Shown in pieces: positions 14,235 to 19,744 of a DNA stretch of 33,080 bases. Both the position numbers and the translations under genes were made by a program. The stretch's first letter is position 1. Each line of letters opens with the position of its first letter. Source of the stretch: Candidatus Rokuibacteriota bacterium (GTDB lineage Bacteria > Methylomirabilota > Methylomirabilia > Rokubacteriales > CSP1-6); the NCBI GenBank assembly GCA_030647435.1, contig JAUSJX010000111.1:1-33080 (forward strand). The letters run 5' to 3'. The notes beneath the pieces are model-generated. The model did no database searches, was not told the origin of the DNA, and saw only the letters and a list, made by a program, of their open reading frames with translations.

Positions 14235-15140
14235 ATGAGGAGTCCGGGCAGGCGACGGGTGGTTCTGGGGTGCGTGTCGGTTGCGGTGCTGGTCTGTTTC
14301 TACACCGTTGCATCGAACGCCGGCCGGCTCGTTGACCCCGAACTCCTTCCCGAGCCGTTCGCTCGCTTCTTGAGGCCGGACCTCCTGCCGCCGACGCAGG
14401 CCATCTTCAAGGCCCTGGTGAGCCTCGTGACCGGCGAGCTGCCGCCCATGGAAGGCCACCACGCTCATCCGAGCGGGCATGTCAGCCATCTCGTAGAGCA
14501 GCACGTGAGCCTGCAGGGCGCGCTGCTCGTGAGCGTACTCCGGGTGCTGTTCGGCGTGGCCGTCGGGGGACCGCTCGGCATCCTGACGGGCTTCGTTTTG
14601 GGCTGGAACCGGACGGCGGACGACTACCTCCACCCGATCTACGTCCTCCTGCGGTCCATCCCTTCGCTCGCGCTCATCACCTACGTCATGCTGTGGTTCG
14701 GGCACGGCGAGGCCCACCTGCTCATCCCCATCGTGTACGCCGTCTTCACCACGGTGGTGATCCCGACCTACCACGGCGTCCGCGATTTGGCCGACGTGTA
14801 CGTGCGCGCGGCGCGCTCGCTCGGCGCCGGCGGCCGGCTGCTGTTCGCCCGGGTGGTCCTGCCGGCCGCGAGTCCCGCCGTGCTCTCCGCCCTGCGCTAC
14901 TCGCTCATCATCGCGTGGATGACCACGGTCGGCGTCGAGATGCTGATGGGGGACGACGGCATCGGCCACCTGCTCGTGGGCGGCGGGCTCTGGTCCTCCC
15001 GGCTGCAGATCGGAGTGGACCCCGCCGTGATCGTCGTCGGCATCCTGGGGCTCGCGGCAGCGGGATACCTGATGGACACGGCGGCCCGGATCGTGAGCGA
15101 CCGTGTGACGTTCTGGGCCAGGAGGCGGCGGGCGTGGTAG
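14235..15140 (+). CDS. ABC permease (NitT/TauT type) with histidine-rich external loop
   Basis: 301-residue BPD_transp_1 permease. TM1 spans about residues 9-27; five further segments follow from about residue 96. The ATPase-contact EAA loop is HGVRDLADVYVRAARSLGAGG, and the family motif PSLALITYVMLWFG precedes it. Unusual for this class: the extracytoplasmic segment between TM1 and TM2 contains His75, His76, His78, His82, His85 and His90 (MEGHHAHPSGHVSHLVEQH), a likely metal-binding loop. First gene of six with overlaps or short gaps; the second permease starts seven bases before this stop. No substrate-binding protein accompanies it. A perfect TTGACA lies at 14172-14177, but a matching -10 box is not clear. 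Confidence 0.88.
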   Translation: MRSPGRRRVVLGCVSVAVLVCFYTVASNAGRLVDPELLPEPFARFLRPDLLPPTQAIFKALVSLVTGELPPMEGHHAHPSGHVSHLVEQHVSLQGALLVSVLRVLFGVAVGGPLGILTGFVLGWNRTADDYLHPIYVLLRSIPSLALITYVMLWFGHGEAHLLIPIVYAVFTTVVIPTYHGVRDLADVYVRAARSLGAGGRLLFARVVLPAASPAVLSALRYSLIIAWMTTVGVEMLMGDDGIGHLLVGGGLWSSRLQIGVDPAVIVVGILGLAAAGYLMDTAARIVSDRVTFWARRRRAW

Positions 15141-15952
15141 CCGCGCTGCGCTCGATTCGCGTGAGGCGGGGGCTCGTGGGGCTCCTGGCTTTGCTCGCGC
15201 TGTACGGCTTGGCCGCGCAGATCGCCAGCGGCCGTCTCCCGACGAGGGTGTTCCTGGTGATGCACGACATCGAGGGTGTGGAGCTCCTTCCCACCTACTC
15301 TTCGCTCGTGGAGGAGGGCGTGTTCCTGGTGCAGGCGGGCATCCTTCTGAAAGGGGCCGCCGTCAGCACGGGGCGGGTCCTGGCCGGGCTGCTTCTGGGA
15401 TCGGTCGTCGGCATCGCCCTGGGCTTGGCCATGGGGTGGGCGGCCGGGTTCGAGTATGCGCTCGACCCGTGGGTCGTCCTTCTCCGGTTCACCCCCGCCC
15501 TCGCCCTGCTGCCGCTCTACGTGCTGTGGTTCGGCCTGGGCGAGGCCGCCAAGATCGGGCTGATCGCGACGGCGGTGGCCGTGGTGACGCTGCAGGGCGC
15601 CTATCAGGGAGTGCGCGGTATCCCGGCCGTGTACTGGGACGTGGCCGCGGCCCTGGCGGCGCCGCGGAGCCTCGTGCTCCGGCGCATCGTCCTCCCCGCC
15701 GCGCTGCCGCAGATCCTGGCGAGCCTGCGCATCGCCATCGCGCTCGGCTGGGTCACGGTCATCGCGGCGGAGCTGATCAAGCCCTCCATGCCCAGCCTCG
15801 GCTATCTTCTGGCACTCGCCGGCGCCTACCCGCGCGTGCCGACCATCGTGATCGCGCTCGCCGCCATCGCCCTGCTCGTCCTGGTCTCGGACGGGCTCAC
15901 GCTGGCCGCCTACCGCTGGGCGACCCGCTGGATGAGGAGGCGGTATGCCTAG
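15134..15952 (+). CDS. ABC permease (NitT/TauT type), second subunit
   Basis: 272-residue BPD_transp_1 permease. TM1 lies around residues 12-27 (GLLALLALYGLAAQI); then an external stretch, and five more segments including LLLGSVVGIALGLAMGWAAGF and FTPALALLPLYVLWFGLGEAAK. The EAA loop is QGVRGIPAVYWDVAAALAAP. It starts at GTG 15134, overlapping the first permease by seven bases with GGAGGCGGCGG upstream; no better start is available. It overlaps the ATPase gene by eight bases. The two permeases are paralogues and probably form a heterodimer. Confidence 0.87.
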   Translation: MVAALRSIRVRRGLVGLLALLALYGLAAQIASGRLPTRVFLVMHDIEGVELLPTYSSLVEEGVFLVQAGILLKGAAVSTGRVLAGLLLGSVVGIALGLAMGWAAGFEYALDPWVVLLRFTPALALLPLYVLWFGLGEAAKIGLIATAVAVVTLQGAYQGVRGIPAVYWDVAAALAAPRSLVLRRIVLPAALPQILASLRIAIALGWVTVIAAELIKPSMPSLGYLLALAGAYPRVPTIVIALAAIALLVLVSDGLTLAAYRWATRWMRRRYA

Positions 15953-16727
15953 GAACCAGCCCCGGAAGGTCCGGCTCCAGGTCGACGATGTCGCCTACGT
16001 GTATGAGGGGCGCACGCGTACCCACGCGCTCGACGGGCTCACGCTGGTCGTGCACGACAATGAGTTCCTCGCCGTCGTCGGACCCGTGGGCTGCGGCAAG
16101 ACCACGTTCCTCCGCATCGTGGCCGGGTTTCTCACACCGACGCGAGGGATCGTGCTCTGCGATGGAAGCCCCGTGCGCGCGCCGGGGGCCGAGCGCGGGT
16201 TCGTCTTTCAGGAGGACGCGATCTTCCCGTGGATGACGGTGCAGGACAACCTGGAGTTCGGGCTGCGGGCCAAGGGCGCGCCGCCCACGGAGCGCGCGGC
16301 AGTCGCCGCGGAGCTCATCCGGCTCATCGGTCTCCAGGGATACGAGCGGGCCTATCCGGGCGAGCTGTCGGCGGGCATGTCCAAGATGGTCGAGGTGGCG
16401 CGCGTCCTCGCCACGGACCCGTCCATCCTGCTCATGGACGAGCCCTTCGGCTCTCTCGATGCCCAGACCCGCGGGCAGATGCAGGACGAGCTCCACCGGC
16501 TGTGGGAGAAGCGCCTCAAGACCGTCGTGCTGGTCACCCACGACGTGGAGGAGGCCATCTGCCTGGCCGACCGCGTGCTCGTGTTCTCGCCGCGGCCGGG
16601 CCGCGTCAAGGCGGAAGTGGCCGTGCCGCTCCCGCGGCCGCGGCCGCTCGAGCTGCGGCTGTCGCCGGAGTTCTCCGCGATCAAGCGGCGGATCTGGGCC
16701 GAGCTGGGGCTCGCTGAGGTCTCCTAG
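15945..16727 (+). CDS. ABC transporter ATPase (NitT/TauT type) with unusual signature motif
   Basis: 260-residue nucleotide-binding subunit. Walker A is GPVGCGKTT, the Q-loop region is FVFQEDAIFPWMTV, Walker B is ILLMDEPFGSLD, and the switch His lies in LVTHDVEEA. The ABC signature reads LSAGMSKMVEVAR instead of the usual LSGGMxQR: the second Gly of LSGG is Ala and the conserved Arg/Gln positions are changed. GAGGAG precedes ATG 15945. It overlaps the upstream permease and is followed 14 bases later by the CuA-protein gene. It energises the permease pair; the substrate class of the clade is usually small anions or pyrimidine precursors, but the downstream genes suggest a redox or metal connection. 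Confidence 0.9.
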   Translation: MPRNQPRKVRLQVDDVAYVYEGRTRTHALDGLTLVVHDNEFLAVVGPVGCGKTTFLRIVAGFLTPTRGIVLCDGSPVRAPGAERGFVFQEDAIFPWMTVQDNLEFGLRAKGAPPTERAAVAAELIRLIGLQGYERAYPGELSAGMSKMVEVARVLATDPSILLMDEPFGSLDAQTRGQMQDELHRLWEKRLKTVVLVTHDVEEAICLADRVLVFSPRPGRVKAEVAVPLPRPRPLELRLSPEFSAIKRRIWAELGLAEVS

Positions 16728-16741
16728 ACGTGGAGCGGAGG

Positions 16742-17251
16742 ATGGCGCGCTCGCTCGGGCTCACGGTGGCGGCGGTGGCGGCGCTGGGGGCGGCGGTGGT
16801 CTGGGCGGCCTATGGGCTCGCGGGCGTAATCCCGGCGGGCGACGACGTCACTCGCGACGGAGTGCGCCAGGTGACGATATACGGGCACACCTGGGGATTC
16901 AGCCCGAATGTCATCCGCGTCGCACCCGGCGAGACGGTGCAGTTCATCGTGCGGAGCGAAGACCTGCAGCACGGCTTCGCCATCAATGAGCTGGGCCTCA
17001 ATCTCCAGCTCGCCCCAGGCCGGGACATGCGTTCCCCGGCGGTGAAGGTTGACCTGCCCGAGGGCATCTACCCCATCCACTGCAGTGTCTTCTGCGGCAT
17101 CGGCCATCCGTCCATGAAGGCGCGGCTGGTGGTCGGGGCCCCGCCGCCGGCGCCGCCTTCGCGGCTGCCGTGGATCGCCTCAGTGCTGAGCGCCGCCGCG
17201 GCGGTTGGATTCGGAGCCTGGGCCCGCACGGGGCGGAGCGCGCGGGCATGA
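16742..17251 (+). CDS. membrane-anchored CuA cupredoxin (COX2/NosZ-like)
   Basis: 169-residue protein: N-terminal membrane anchor at about residues 5-27, a periplasmic cupredoxin domain at about 40-135, and a second hydrophobic segment near the C-terminus (about 147-163). It carries a full binuclear CuA ligand set with the spacing of cytochrome oxidase subunit II: His77 in LQHGFAI, then Cys114-x3-Cys118-x3-His122-x2-Met125 (CSVFCGIGHPSM). CuA sites accept and pass single electrons. No heme-copper oxidase subunit I or nosZ is in the window, so it is not part of a standard oxidase operon. ATG 16742 has GGAG six bases upstream; GTG 16730 is an alternative. The stop overlaps the next start (ATGA). 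Confidence 0.85.
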   Translation: MARSLGLTVAAVAALGAAVVWAAYGLAGVIPAGDDVTRDGVRQVTIYGHTWGFSPNVIRVAPGETVQFIVRSEDLQHGFAINELGLNLQLAPGRDMRSPAVKVDLPEGIYPIHCSVFCGIGHPSMKARLVVGAPPPAPPSRLPWIASVLSAAAAVGFGAWARTGRSARA

Positions 17252-18693
17252 GCGGGCCGGCCGGCGTAGGACCGCGGGCACCCAGGGGCGATCTCCTTCG
17301 GTTGGCGCCGATCCGGCGCCTCGTGGGGCTGCGGGCCTTTCAGTTTCTTGTCATCCTTCCGACGGCGGCGGTCGGGGGGGTGATCCTGCTCTCGACGGCC
17401 GTCGGCATCGAGCACCCCAGCTTCAACTTCGGCACCGTGTTCACCTGGGTGGTCTGGTGGGGCGCCTTGCTTCTGTCCTTCGTCGCGCTTGGCCGCGCCT
17501 GGTGCCTGGTCTGCCCGCTCGGCGCCCTGGGCGAGTGGGTGCAGCGGCTGAGCTTCTGGCGGCGGGTGCCCTATACGGCCGGCTACCACTTCCGCTGGCC
17601 GAAGCCGCTCAGGAACATGGGGCTCGCCACCACGCTGTTCATCGTCTTCGTCTGGCTCGACAACGGCTACGGCATGTCGAACAGCCCGCGGATGACGGCA
17701 GGCCTCATCGTGGTCATCGCACTGGGCGCCGCGTGGATTAATCTTTTCTTCGAGCGGCGGGCCTTCTGCCGCTACGTCTGCCCGCTGACCGCGTTCATCG
17801 GCCTCTGCTCGCTCTTCTCCGTAGTGGAGCTGCGGCGCCGGGAGGCGGGTACGTGCCGGAGCCAGTGCGCGACCAAGGACTGCTTCAGGGGAAATGACCG
17901 GCAGTACGGCTGTCCCATGGGCGAGTTCCCCGGCGGGGCCATGGACACCAACCTCCACTGCATCCTCTGCACCGAATGCATCAAGGGCTGCCCACACGAC
18001 AATATCGCGCTCCGCTTCAGGCCGCCGGGGCGCGACCTCTGGGCCATGCGGCGCCCGCAGGCCGACGGGGCCGTCGCGGCCGCGGTGATCGTTGGGCTGA
18101 CCACCGTCCTGCCGCTCGTGCTGCTCCTCCTGCTCCCGGGCCTGCGGCGGGCGCTGGCCGGCCTCTTGCCGGCGGGCGCGCCGCCCAATGACTTCCCGCG
18201 CCTGGCGGCGGTGGGCCTGCTCTTTGCCCTCGGCATAGGCCTGGGCCTGGGACTCGTCTGGGGCTTCAGCGCGCTGGCCCGGCTCTCCGTGCGTCAAGCG
18301 GTGCCGACTGCGGGGGCGCTCTTCGCAAGCTTCGCCTACGCCCTCATCCCCATGGCGCTGTTCAAGATGATGGCGGATCTCCTTGACCACGCGCTCCGGA
18401 CCTGGGGCCCGCTCGTGGATGCGACCCGGGCGCTGGCGCTGGACTTCCCGCTGAACCGCGTCGTGCCCGGCCGGGTGACCGTGATGCATCTGCTGGGGCC
18501 GGAGAGCGTGTATGCGCTGCAAAGCGCGCTCGTCCTGGGCGGCCTCGTGTGGAGCCTCTACGCGCTGTGGCGCATCTCGGAGCGCCTCTTCGGCGACCGC
18601 AGGGCCGCCCTTGCGGCCTGGGTGCCGATGGCGGGGCTGAGCCTGGTCCTGACGCTGATGAGCCTGTGGACGCTCGGGATCGGGCTCCTCTGA
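17248..18693 (+). CDS. NapH/NosR-like membrane polyferredoxin
   Basis: 481-residue integral membrane iron-sulfur protein. TM segments surround two paired-Cys motifs: Cys86/Cys89 (WCLVCPLG) and Cys174/Cys178 (FCRYVCPL), as in NapH, NosR and CcoG-type proteins. A cytoplasmic loop then carries Cys203-x3-Cys207-x4-Cys212-x9-Cys222-Pro and a classic 4Fe-4S set Cys238-x2-Cys241-x2-Cys244-x3-Cys248-Pro. Four or more hydrophobic helices follow (residues about 275-480), which is longer than NapH. Relatives move electrons across the membrane between quinol and periplasmic copper or molybdenum enzymes. ATG 17248 overlaps the CuA gene's stop, so the two are made together; this protein is the likely electron partner of that CuA domain. 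Confidence 0.85.
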   Translation: MSGPAGVGPRAPRGDLLRLAPIRRLVGLRAFQFLVILPTAAVGGVILLSTAVGIEHPSFNFGTVFTWVVWWGALLLSFVALGRAWCLVCPLGALGEWVQRLSFWRRVPYTAGYHFRWPKPLRNMGLATTLFIVFVWLDNGYGMSNSPRMTAGLIVVIALGAAWINLFFERRAFCRYVCPLTAFIGLCSLFSVVELRRREAGTCRSQCATKDCFRGNDRQYGCPMGEFPGGAMDTNLHCILCTECIKGCPHDNIALRFRPPGRDLWAMRRPQADGAVAAAVIVGLTTVLPLVLLLLLPGLRRALAGLLPAGAPPNDFPRLAAVGLLFALGIGLGLGLVWGFSALARLSVRQAVPTAGALFASFAYALIPMALFKMMADLLDHALRTWGPLVDATRALALDFPLNRVVPGRVTVMHLLGPESVYALQSALVLGGLVWSLYALWRISERLFGDRRAALAAWVPMAGLSLVLTLMSLWTLGIGLL

Positions 18694-19340
18694 CCGGCCG
18701 TCGGCTTCCGTTGGCCACCGCGGCGGCGCTCCTCGCGCTCACAGCGCTCAGCGTCGCGGCCGGCCTCGCATTCCTCGGCCGGCTTCCGCTCGGGTTCCCG
18801 CAGCGCGCGGGGACCGGCGCGGTCTTCTACGTGGTGCCCTACCAGTACGGCTTCGCCTTCTACGACCGCGACCTCAACGAGATCGAGACGGTCGAGGTCA
18901 AGGCGGGCGAGGCCGTCACGCTGCACATCGTGCCGGCGCACGCGCTGCCGGAGGCCGTCTTCCGCCAGTATGTCGAGCGCTCCATGAAGCGGGCGATCGG
19001 CGGCCTGCCGGCGGCCGATCCCGCGATCCGCCGCAAGCTGTACGAGGATCTGGCCCTGGGCAACGTGGAGCATATCGTGGGCATCGCCGCCCACCCCGTG
19101 TATATGGCCACCGACGTGGCCTCGGTGCTGCGCGGGCGGCCCTTCAGGGAGAACGGCCCTGCCACGCTCCGCGAGGCCGTGAGCCAGGGCGACCCTTCGA
19201 TCAAGTCCGTTACCTTCACCGCCAAGAAGGTCGGCGCCTTCGACGTGATCTGCGTGGACTCGGGCATGGATGGCGCCGGCACCTGCGGCTGGGGCCACAA
19301 TGCGATGTTCGCCAAAGGGGCCTTCGTCGTCCGACCGTGA
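18666..19340 (+). CDS. CuA-like cupredoxin with expanded Cys-Cys loop
   Basis: About 224 residues: an N-terminal anchor (RRLPLATAAALLALTALSVAAG) and a periplasmic cupredoxin-like domain. A probable CuA ligand set is present: His136 in NVEHIVGI, Cys196, Cys207, His211 and Met214 (CGWGHNAM). The second half matches COX2 spacing exactly (Cys-x3-His-x2-Met), but the two cysteines are ten residues apart instead of three. An insert of about 45 residues precedes His136. The start is uncertain: GTG 18666 overlaps the previous gene by 28 bases, CTG 18690 overlaps it by four, and TTG 18711 is also possible; no ATG lies near. Last gene of the six-gene set. Confidence 0.7.
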   Translation: MDARDRAPLTGRRLPLATAAALLALTALSVAAGLAFLGRLPLGFPQRAGTGAVFYVVPYQYGFAFYDRDLNEIETVEVKAGEAVTLHIVPAHALPEAVFRQYVERSMKRAIGGLPAADPAIRRKLYEDLALGNVEHIVGIAAHPVYMATDVASVLRGRPFRENGPATLREAVSQGDPSIKSVTFTAKKVGAFDVICVDSGMDGAGTCGWGHNAMFAKGAFVVRP

Positions 19341-19405: not shown

Positions 19406-19744
19406 ATGGCGACGAGTCAGAGTGAGAAGGCCGCGCGCTTCCGGGCGCTGCACGAGGCTCCGGGCGCATTCGCGATTCCCAATCCGTGGGATGCGGGCTC
19501 GGCGCACGTCCTGGCCGGGCTCGGCTTCGAGGCGCTGGCCACCTCGAGCGGCGCCTCCGCCGGCATCCTCGGCCGGCGCGACGGCAAGGTGACGCGCGAG
19601 GAGGCGCTGGCGCACGCCCGGGCCATCGTGGCGGCCACCGATCTGCCCGTCTCCGCCGATCTCGAGAAGGGCTTCAAGAGCACATTCGGCTATCTCGACA
19701 GCTCCCTGACGACGCCCGAGTTGAACGCGTTCATGCAGGGCTGA
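19406..19744 (+). pseudogene. PEP mutase / isocitrate lyase family gene with in-frame internal deletion
   Basis: 112 residues against about 270-290 in the family. The N-terminal part is normal: FRALHEAPGAFAIPNPWDAG, then TSSGASAGILGRRDGKVTREE and DLPVSADLEKGF, the usual start of the barrel. Immediately after that the protein jumps to STFGYLDSSLTTPELNAFMQG, which resembles the extreme C-terminus of family members. About 160-170 residues of barrel, with most of the metal and substrate ligands, are missing without a frame change. The start is well supported by GGAGGA five bases before ATG. Full-length relatives cleave or isomerise small 2-hydroxy/oxo acids; this product is very unlikely to be active. 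Confidence 0.7.

Follow-up and report, generated by a model that had tools for sequence, protein, structure and literature searches.

Gene content of the locus

The window analysed here (the whole stretch of 33,080 nucleotides of contig JAUSJX010000111.1 from a Candidatus Rokuibacteriota bacterium) carries an overlapping six-gene operon, with no real gaps, which encodes two permeases (perm1 and perm2), an ATPase, a CuA protein, a NapH/CcoG-like Fe-S protein and a second CuA-like protein (Table 1). The two permease genes overlap, with the GTG of perm2 at 15134 and the stop codon of perm1 at 15138-15140.

Table 1. Window coordinates of the operon genes and of the residues discussed in the text
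Feature	Position	Strand	Remarks
perm1, NitT/TauT-type ABC permease bearing the His loop	14235..15140	+	301 aa
His-rich stretch M72-H90 of perm1	14448..14504	+	within 23-24-residue insertion, TM1 region-TM2, periplasmic
Conserved core H78-x3-H82 of perm1	14466..14480	+	invariant in 5/5 orthologs
Met152 of perm1	14688..14690	+	invariant in orthologs, 7% of outgroup; periplasmic end of TM3
Second invariant H-x3-H of perm1 (H157-H161)	14703..14717	+	GHGEAH, TM3-TM4 periplasmic loop
Met238 of perm1	14946..14948	+	invariant in orthologs, 0% of outgroup; periplasmic end of TM5
perm2, NitT/TauT-type permease without insertion	15134..15952	+	GTG start overlaps perm1 stop
H43-x2-E46-x2-E49 of perm2	15263..15283	+	clade-specific, invariant; predicted periplasmic segment after TM1; numbering from 15137
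ABC ATPase, NitT/TauT type	15945..16727	+	without fused substrate-binding domain
P0003, membrane-anchored CuA protein	16730..17251	+	ba3 COX2 / NosZ C-domain type
P0002, NapH/CcoG-like multi-TM 4Fe-4S membrane protein	17248..18693	+	CxxCP, CxxxCP, CxxCxxCxxxC motifs
P0004, second anchored CuA-like protein	18690..19340	+	H128...C188-x10-C199-x3-H203-x2-M206

Perm1 belongs to the BPD_transp_1 family (Pfam PF00528, 2.3e-25), SsuC, SaoP, TauC and NrtB profiles match it at 1e-27 to 1e-21, and the nearest solved structures found in a PDB search were NrtB (8w9m) and CmpB (9u9z). By its BPD_transp_1 fold, its EAA loop and its similarity to SsuC, TauC and NrtB it is a NitT/TauT permease, as an earlier note made from the sequence had called it, and it scores far under the curated equivalog cut-offs for nitrate, taurine and sulfonate transport (95 versus 347, 91 versus 342 and 76 versus 209 bits). 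The EAA or coupling loop (residues 183-211) is cytoplasmic by definition and fixes the parity of the transmembrane helices, and the basic termini (RRR at the N-terminus, RRRR at the C-terminus) agree with this, so that residues 27-97 and 154-162 are placed in the periplasm, where alignment to NrtB places them too. An AF2 model of perm1, built from a 4-row alignment of relatives, reached a pLDDT of 45 and no geometry was taken from it.

P0003 has the full set of CuA ligands (H81, C118, C122, H126 and M129), all invariant in its orthologs, and its profile matches the Thermus ba3 CuA domain (2cua and 1ehk) across the whole domain, with 3e-14 for 2cua. P0002 has Fer4_5 domains and Cys motifs that are conserved in its orthologs, and matches NapH and NosR profiles at sub-threshold level only. 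P0004 matched no Pfam or NCBIfam profile, and AF2 run on it alone gave a pLDDT of 51; its ligand-like H...C-x10-C-x3-H-x2-M pattern is invariant in orthologs. The start of P0004 is ambiguous, as there is no ATG, GTG or TTG at 18690 and an in-frame GTG lies at 18549. Two PDB matches, an antifreeze protein for A5 and PsaK for A2, were dismissed as spurious. Beyond the operon, an ORF of 112 amino acids at 19406-19744 is a truncated member of the methylisocitrate lyase/PEP-mutase family, covering positions 4-90 of a 294-residue model, and is probably what remains of a gene; on its other side lies a gene of the enolase superfamily.

The histidine-rich loop and conserved residues of perm1

The earlier note had singled out six histidines of perm1 (75, 76, 78, 82, 85 and 90) lying within 16 residues in an extracytoplasmic loop between TM1 and TM2, and the translation of 14235-15140 agrees with it. 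The stretch reads P71, M72, E73, Gly, H75, H76, Ala, H78, Pro-Ser-Gly, H82, Val-Ser, H85, Leu-Val-Glu-Gln, H90, and its coordinates were given exactly, with the codon of M72 at 14448-14450 and that of H90 at 14502-14504; the topology described above likewise puts it in the periplasm. Perm1 is itself unusually rich in histidine (11 in total), and six in 16 residues nevertheless exceeds chance, being reached in 8 of 20,000 shuffles of the perm1 sequence, while the most found per 16 residues among 57 related permeases is three.

Perm1 was aligned with its orthologs (five, including that of the window), with the five orthologs of perm2 and with a further 57 permeases of NitT/TauT type, this outgroup being drawn nearly all from one phylum. 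The region 62-98 of perm1 comprises 37-39 residues in its orthologs, against a median of 14 and a maximum of 24 in the other permeases, and the insertion of 23-24 residues is missing from all 57 outgroup permeases and from perm2, bearing out the view that such a loop is atypical of ordinary NitT/TauT permeases. The loop sequences of the five orthologs are GHHAHPSGHVSHLVEQH (window), GGHVHPTDHVGGLLAQG (G015), GADLHPGDHIGGLVEQR (G089), GAYVHTGDHIGGLVEQR (G031) and LHAHHGLDHLSGLIKEG (G090), with 6, 2, 2, 3 and 4 histidines among them. Comparison of the loop between homologues had been set beforehand as the test of the six-His loop as a metal site, and it divides the six histidines: His78 and His82 are kept as H-x3-H in all five orthologs, and His75, His76, His85 and His90 are not conserved. 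Together with G74 and L86, His78 and His82 are the only invariant residues in the centre of the insertion. A conserved site of six histidines is thus ruled out by the orthologs and only the H-x3-H core of the loop survives, and M72 and E73, which had been pointed out as adjacent residues of note, are not conserved either.

Several features that the earlier reading missed lie elsewhere on the two permeases. A second H-x3-H (H157 and H161) falls in the other periplasmic loop of perm1, at positions that hold His in none of the 57 outgroup permeases and usually have Ile and Ser; Met152 and Met238 stand at periplasmic helix ends, Met238 being found in 0 of 57 outgroup permeases, and Met280 is also invariant in perm1 and present in 5% of the outgroup. 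The sole clade-specific His of perm2 belongs to its invariant H43-x2-E46-x2-E49. At the opposite face, the cytoplasmic end of TM3 carries the invariant His133 of perm1 (14631-14633), which could be an exit-side ligand; other permeases have His there in 2% of cases and usually Asp or Glu.

Histidine makes up 5 of the 27 perm1-specific invariant sites compared to 2 of 155 in six pooled control clades (Fisher test, P = 0.0009), a test which takes the alignment as given and treats sites as independent. For perm2, from the same genomes, the share is 1 of 34, and perm1 against perm2 alone gives P = 0.055 under the same assumptions. The two H-x3-H pairs, Met152, Met238 and the perm2 motif are predicted to provide conserved, clade-specific ligands of metal type on the periplasmic side of the two permeases, and the second invariant H-x3-H and the HxxExxE of perm2 make metal handling likelier than the loop alone would.

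Distribution and decay of the operon

True orthologs of perm1, besides that of the window, were found in 4 of 95 genomes of the phylum (G089, G031, G015 and G090) at 62-70% identity, and the permeases that come next are far less similar, at about 30-37%. Among 388 genomes of 297 genera perm1 is present in five (E ≤ 1e-40) and has no relative outside the order at that threshold; the second CuA-like protein is present in nine of the same 388 genomes (E ≤ 1e-3), all of them Rokubacteriales, again with none outside the order. Plasmids gave only 4Fe-4S proteins and generic permeases (<60% identity, about 31-35% at best among the matches listed). A peptide scan of genome contigs, which is insensitive to diverged homologs, returned one relative, in the G089 genome.

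The order of the operon genes is identical in G089, G031 and G090, and the same in G015 as far as a truncated NapH-like gene. No binding-protein gene of the NMT1/SsuA type was recognised by inspection in the operon or among the genes beside the five loci, in agreement with the earlier note, which had found none encoded here, and the CuA proteins, which it had named as possible donors of metal to the loop should the loop not capture the substrate directly, are indeed encoded in the same operon as perm1. A radical SAM gene (TIGR04053, AhbD-like) lies directly upstream of the operon in G089 and G031; in G010, where the operon has been lost, it lies next to citrate synthase as well, and so we regard it as a neighbour rather than a part.

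The operon has decayed repeatedly, with remnants or truncations in G025, G034, G010 and G015, some of which could be assembly errors of metagenome bins. In G025 (L132, 8686-9105) the His-loop segment of perm1, GHLHPSDQIAHLL, and the C-terminus of the NapH-like protein form one fused reading frame, which adjoins an intact second CuA-like gene; either part of the operon has been deleted internally or the fusion is a join made in assembly. In G015 (L024, 5648-6720) foreign sequence cuts the NapH-like gene after about 107 residues, and the foreign ORF resembles, by eye, a DUF2384/MbcA-type antitoxin.

Related redox genes also occur apart from the transporter. On a short contig of G037 (L030) a CuA-NapH-CuA-like set is bordered by another NapH gene, not an ATPase gene, and in G094 (L074, 4540-6824) two CuA-like genes flank a NapH-like gene with Rieske, CcdA-, CcmF- and ResA-like genes downstream. 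In many Rokubacteria (L057, 9784-12189, and similar loci) NapH-like paralogs that bear an additional N-terminal domain of periplasmic type adjoin genes for multihaem cytochromes c and cytochrome b, in what looks like an undescribed electron-transfer cluster.

Comparison with known systems

No description of this gene set was found in the open-access literature, and it was compared with known systems that resemble it in part. With the NitT/TauT importers (SsuBC, TauBC, NrtBCD/CmpBCD) it shares the permease and ATPase family, the EAA loop and the transmembrane plan, and it differs from them in the 23-residue His insertion, the two H-x3-H pairs, the CuA and Fe-S partners and the lack of a binding protein in the operon. 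P0003 has all the CuA ligands of ba3 oxidase subunit II and of NosZ, but it is not followed by oxidase subunit I or a NosZ catalytic domain and stands instead with ABC and Fe-S genes. P0002 is likened by its sequence motifs to CcoG/RdxA/FixG and NapH/NosR, having Fer4_5, Cys-x(2,3)-Cys-Pro, a 4Fe-4S motif and multiple transmembrane helices; it is longer than these, with extra C-terminal helices, and as an Fe-S membrane protein with CxxxCP motifs it fits the sequence pattern of a CcoG-type cupric reductase.

CcoG, a membrane protein with Fe-S clusters, is a cupric reductase, and CcoA imports copper at the inner membrane and has an MxxxM/HxxxM site (PMC7558416). The window system resembles CcoA (CalT family) in its proposed function and in Met/His metal sites spaced by three residues, but CcoA has the MFS fold, no ATPase and a site inside its transmembrane helices, and there is no homology between them. 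In the Fet cluster, iron uptake requires an ABC heterodimer of unknown substrate together with redox partners (PMC10783030). FetMP-FetABCDEF (P19) likewise has an ABC permease heterodimer whose metal-uptake operon also encodes redox proteins of the membrane and the periplasm; it differs in having the FetM permease, the thioredoxin-like FetE/F and the accessory membrane protein FetA, and no CuA protein has been described for it.

Candidate function of the transporter

Our best explanation, which we hold tentatively, is that perm1 and perm2 form the heterodimer of a type I ABC importer that apparently has no binding protein and has been adapted to a transition metal of soft or borderline character, copper being the likeliest. 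Because the outer-face His pairs are absent from ordinary relatives, the system may import a metal rather than nitrate or sulfonates, and copper is favoured over Fe, Zn, Ni or a small molecule mainly because of the gene neighbours, and also by the type of ligand. In favour of metal import are the six clade-specific invariant residues H78, H82, H157, H161, M152 and M238, set against 57 outgroup permeases, and an operon whose gene order is kept in relatives and beside which no binding protein was recognised; against it are the variability of four of the six loop histidines and the small sample of five orthologs, all from one bacterial order.

From conservation, predicted topology and gene order we infer the metal, the direction of transport and the role of each partner as follows. 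The Fe-S protein would pass electrons from quinol or the cytoplasm to the periplasmic CuA proteins or straight to Cu(II), the CuA cupredoxins would relay electrons or metal, a His/Met vestibule of the permease pair would capture the reduced metal and ATP hydrolysis would drive it inward. The extra histidines of the window species (75, 76, 85 and 90) might add only local avidity, or might have arisen by neutral drift, the linker being loose. Type I importers ordinarily depend on a binding protein, and that of perm1 and perm2 could be encoded elsewhere in the genome; perhaps the anchored cupredoxins hand the metal over and stand in for it. CuA sites normally transfer electrons rather than donate metal. 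More doubtful than this explanation is the fuller proposal of a new class of ABC copper importer derived from NitT/TauT permeases, in which anchored CuA cupredoxins would take the place of the soluble binding protein, reducing power would come from a NapH/CcoG-like Fe-S protein dedicated to the system and Cu(I) would pass to a His/Met vestibule made of the two H-x3-H pairs of perm1 and the HxxExxE of perm2.

The main rival to metal import is that the ABC genes belong to a redox or biogenesis module, carrying a non-metal (a thiol, a sulfur compound or a haem- or cofactor-like molecule) with which the two CuA proteins would be built or re-reduced, the His pairs holding a regulatory or structural metal or docking the cupredoxins. 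We think this rather unlikely, although the ABC genes do travel with the CuA-NapH-CuA-like genes, a CuA-NapH-CuA-like module in G037 adjoins a further NapH gene instead of an ATPase gene, and CuA-NapH pairs recur with ResA/CcmF-type maturation genes (L074). The accessory ABC transporters of Nos and Fet may act in such a way, and the substrate of the Fet ABC is likewise unknown though Fet takes up iron (PMC10783030). Such a role gives no special reason for two H-x3-H pairs, clade-specific Met residues and the HxxExxE of perm2 on the entry side, and NosZ is missing from every operon carrier. NosZ (TIGR04246) occurs in 1 of 60 genomes of the order, and its absence from all the carriers makes an accessory role for nitrous-oxide reductase in particular unlikely. 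A link to haem-copper oxidases was also rejected; COX1 is present in 58 of 60 genomes and so does not discriminate the carriers.

Next in rank, and improbable in our judgement, comes an ordinary NitT/TauT importer of an organic compound or oxyanion (sulfonate, nitrate, pyrimidine or similar) served by an orphan binding protein, with the insertion as a docking or structural element and its histidines incidental or pH-sensing. In its fold, its ATPase and its EAA loop the system is a typical one, and the many NitT/TauT systems of these genomes could lend such a protein; the lack of a recognised binding-protein gene at all five loci, the tight operon with CuA and Fe-S genes and a clade-specific His enrichment not seen in the control clades argue against it. 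That the six-His stretch is lineage-specific drift, or a low-complexity expansion in a weakly constrained linker, would fit the four freely varying histidines and the uneven counts between orthologs, but leaves the invariant H78/H82 in an otherwise fast-changing loop, and H157/H161, unexplained, and we regard it as very unlikely.

Significance

Rokubacteria are soil and groundwater bacteria of an uncultured phylum known mainly from metagenomes, and NitT/TauT transporters are a large family, routinely annotated as nitrate, sulfonate or taurine systems. Few copper importers of bacteria are known; CcoA has been described as the first to be identified, and others are believed to exist (PMC7558416). 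If metal import is correct, a NitT/TauT transporter has switched to metal and uses cupredoxins where others use a binding protein, an unusual change of substrate. The perm1 system, confined to one lineage, is an unusual form of a known kind of transporter; it offers a clear, testable prediction at residue level, and it supplies specific residues for mutation and an operon signature for searching.
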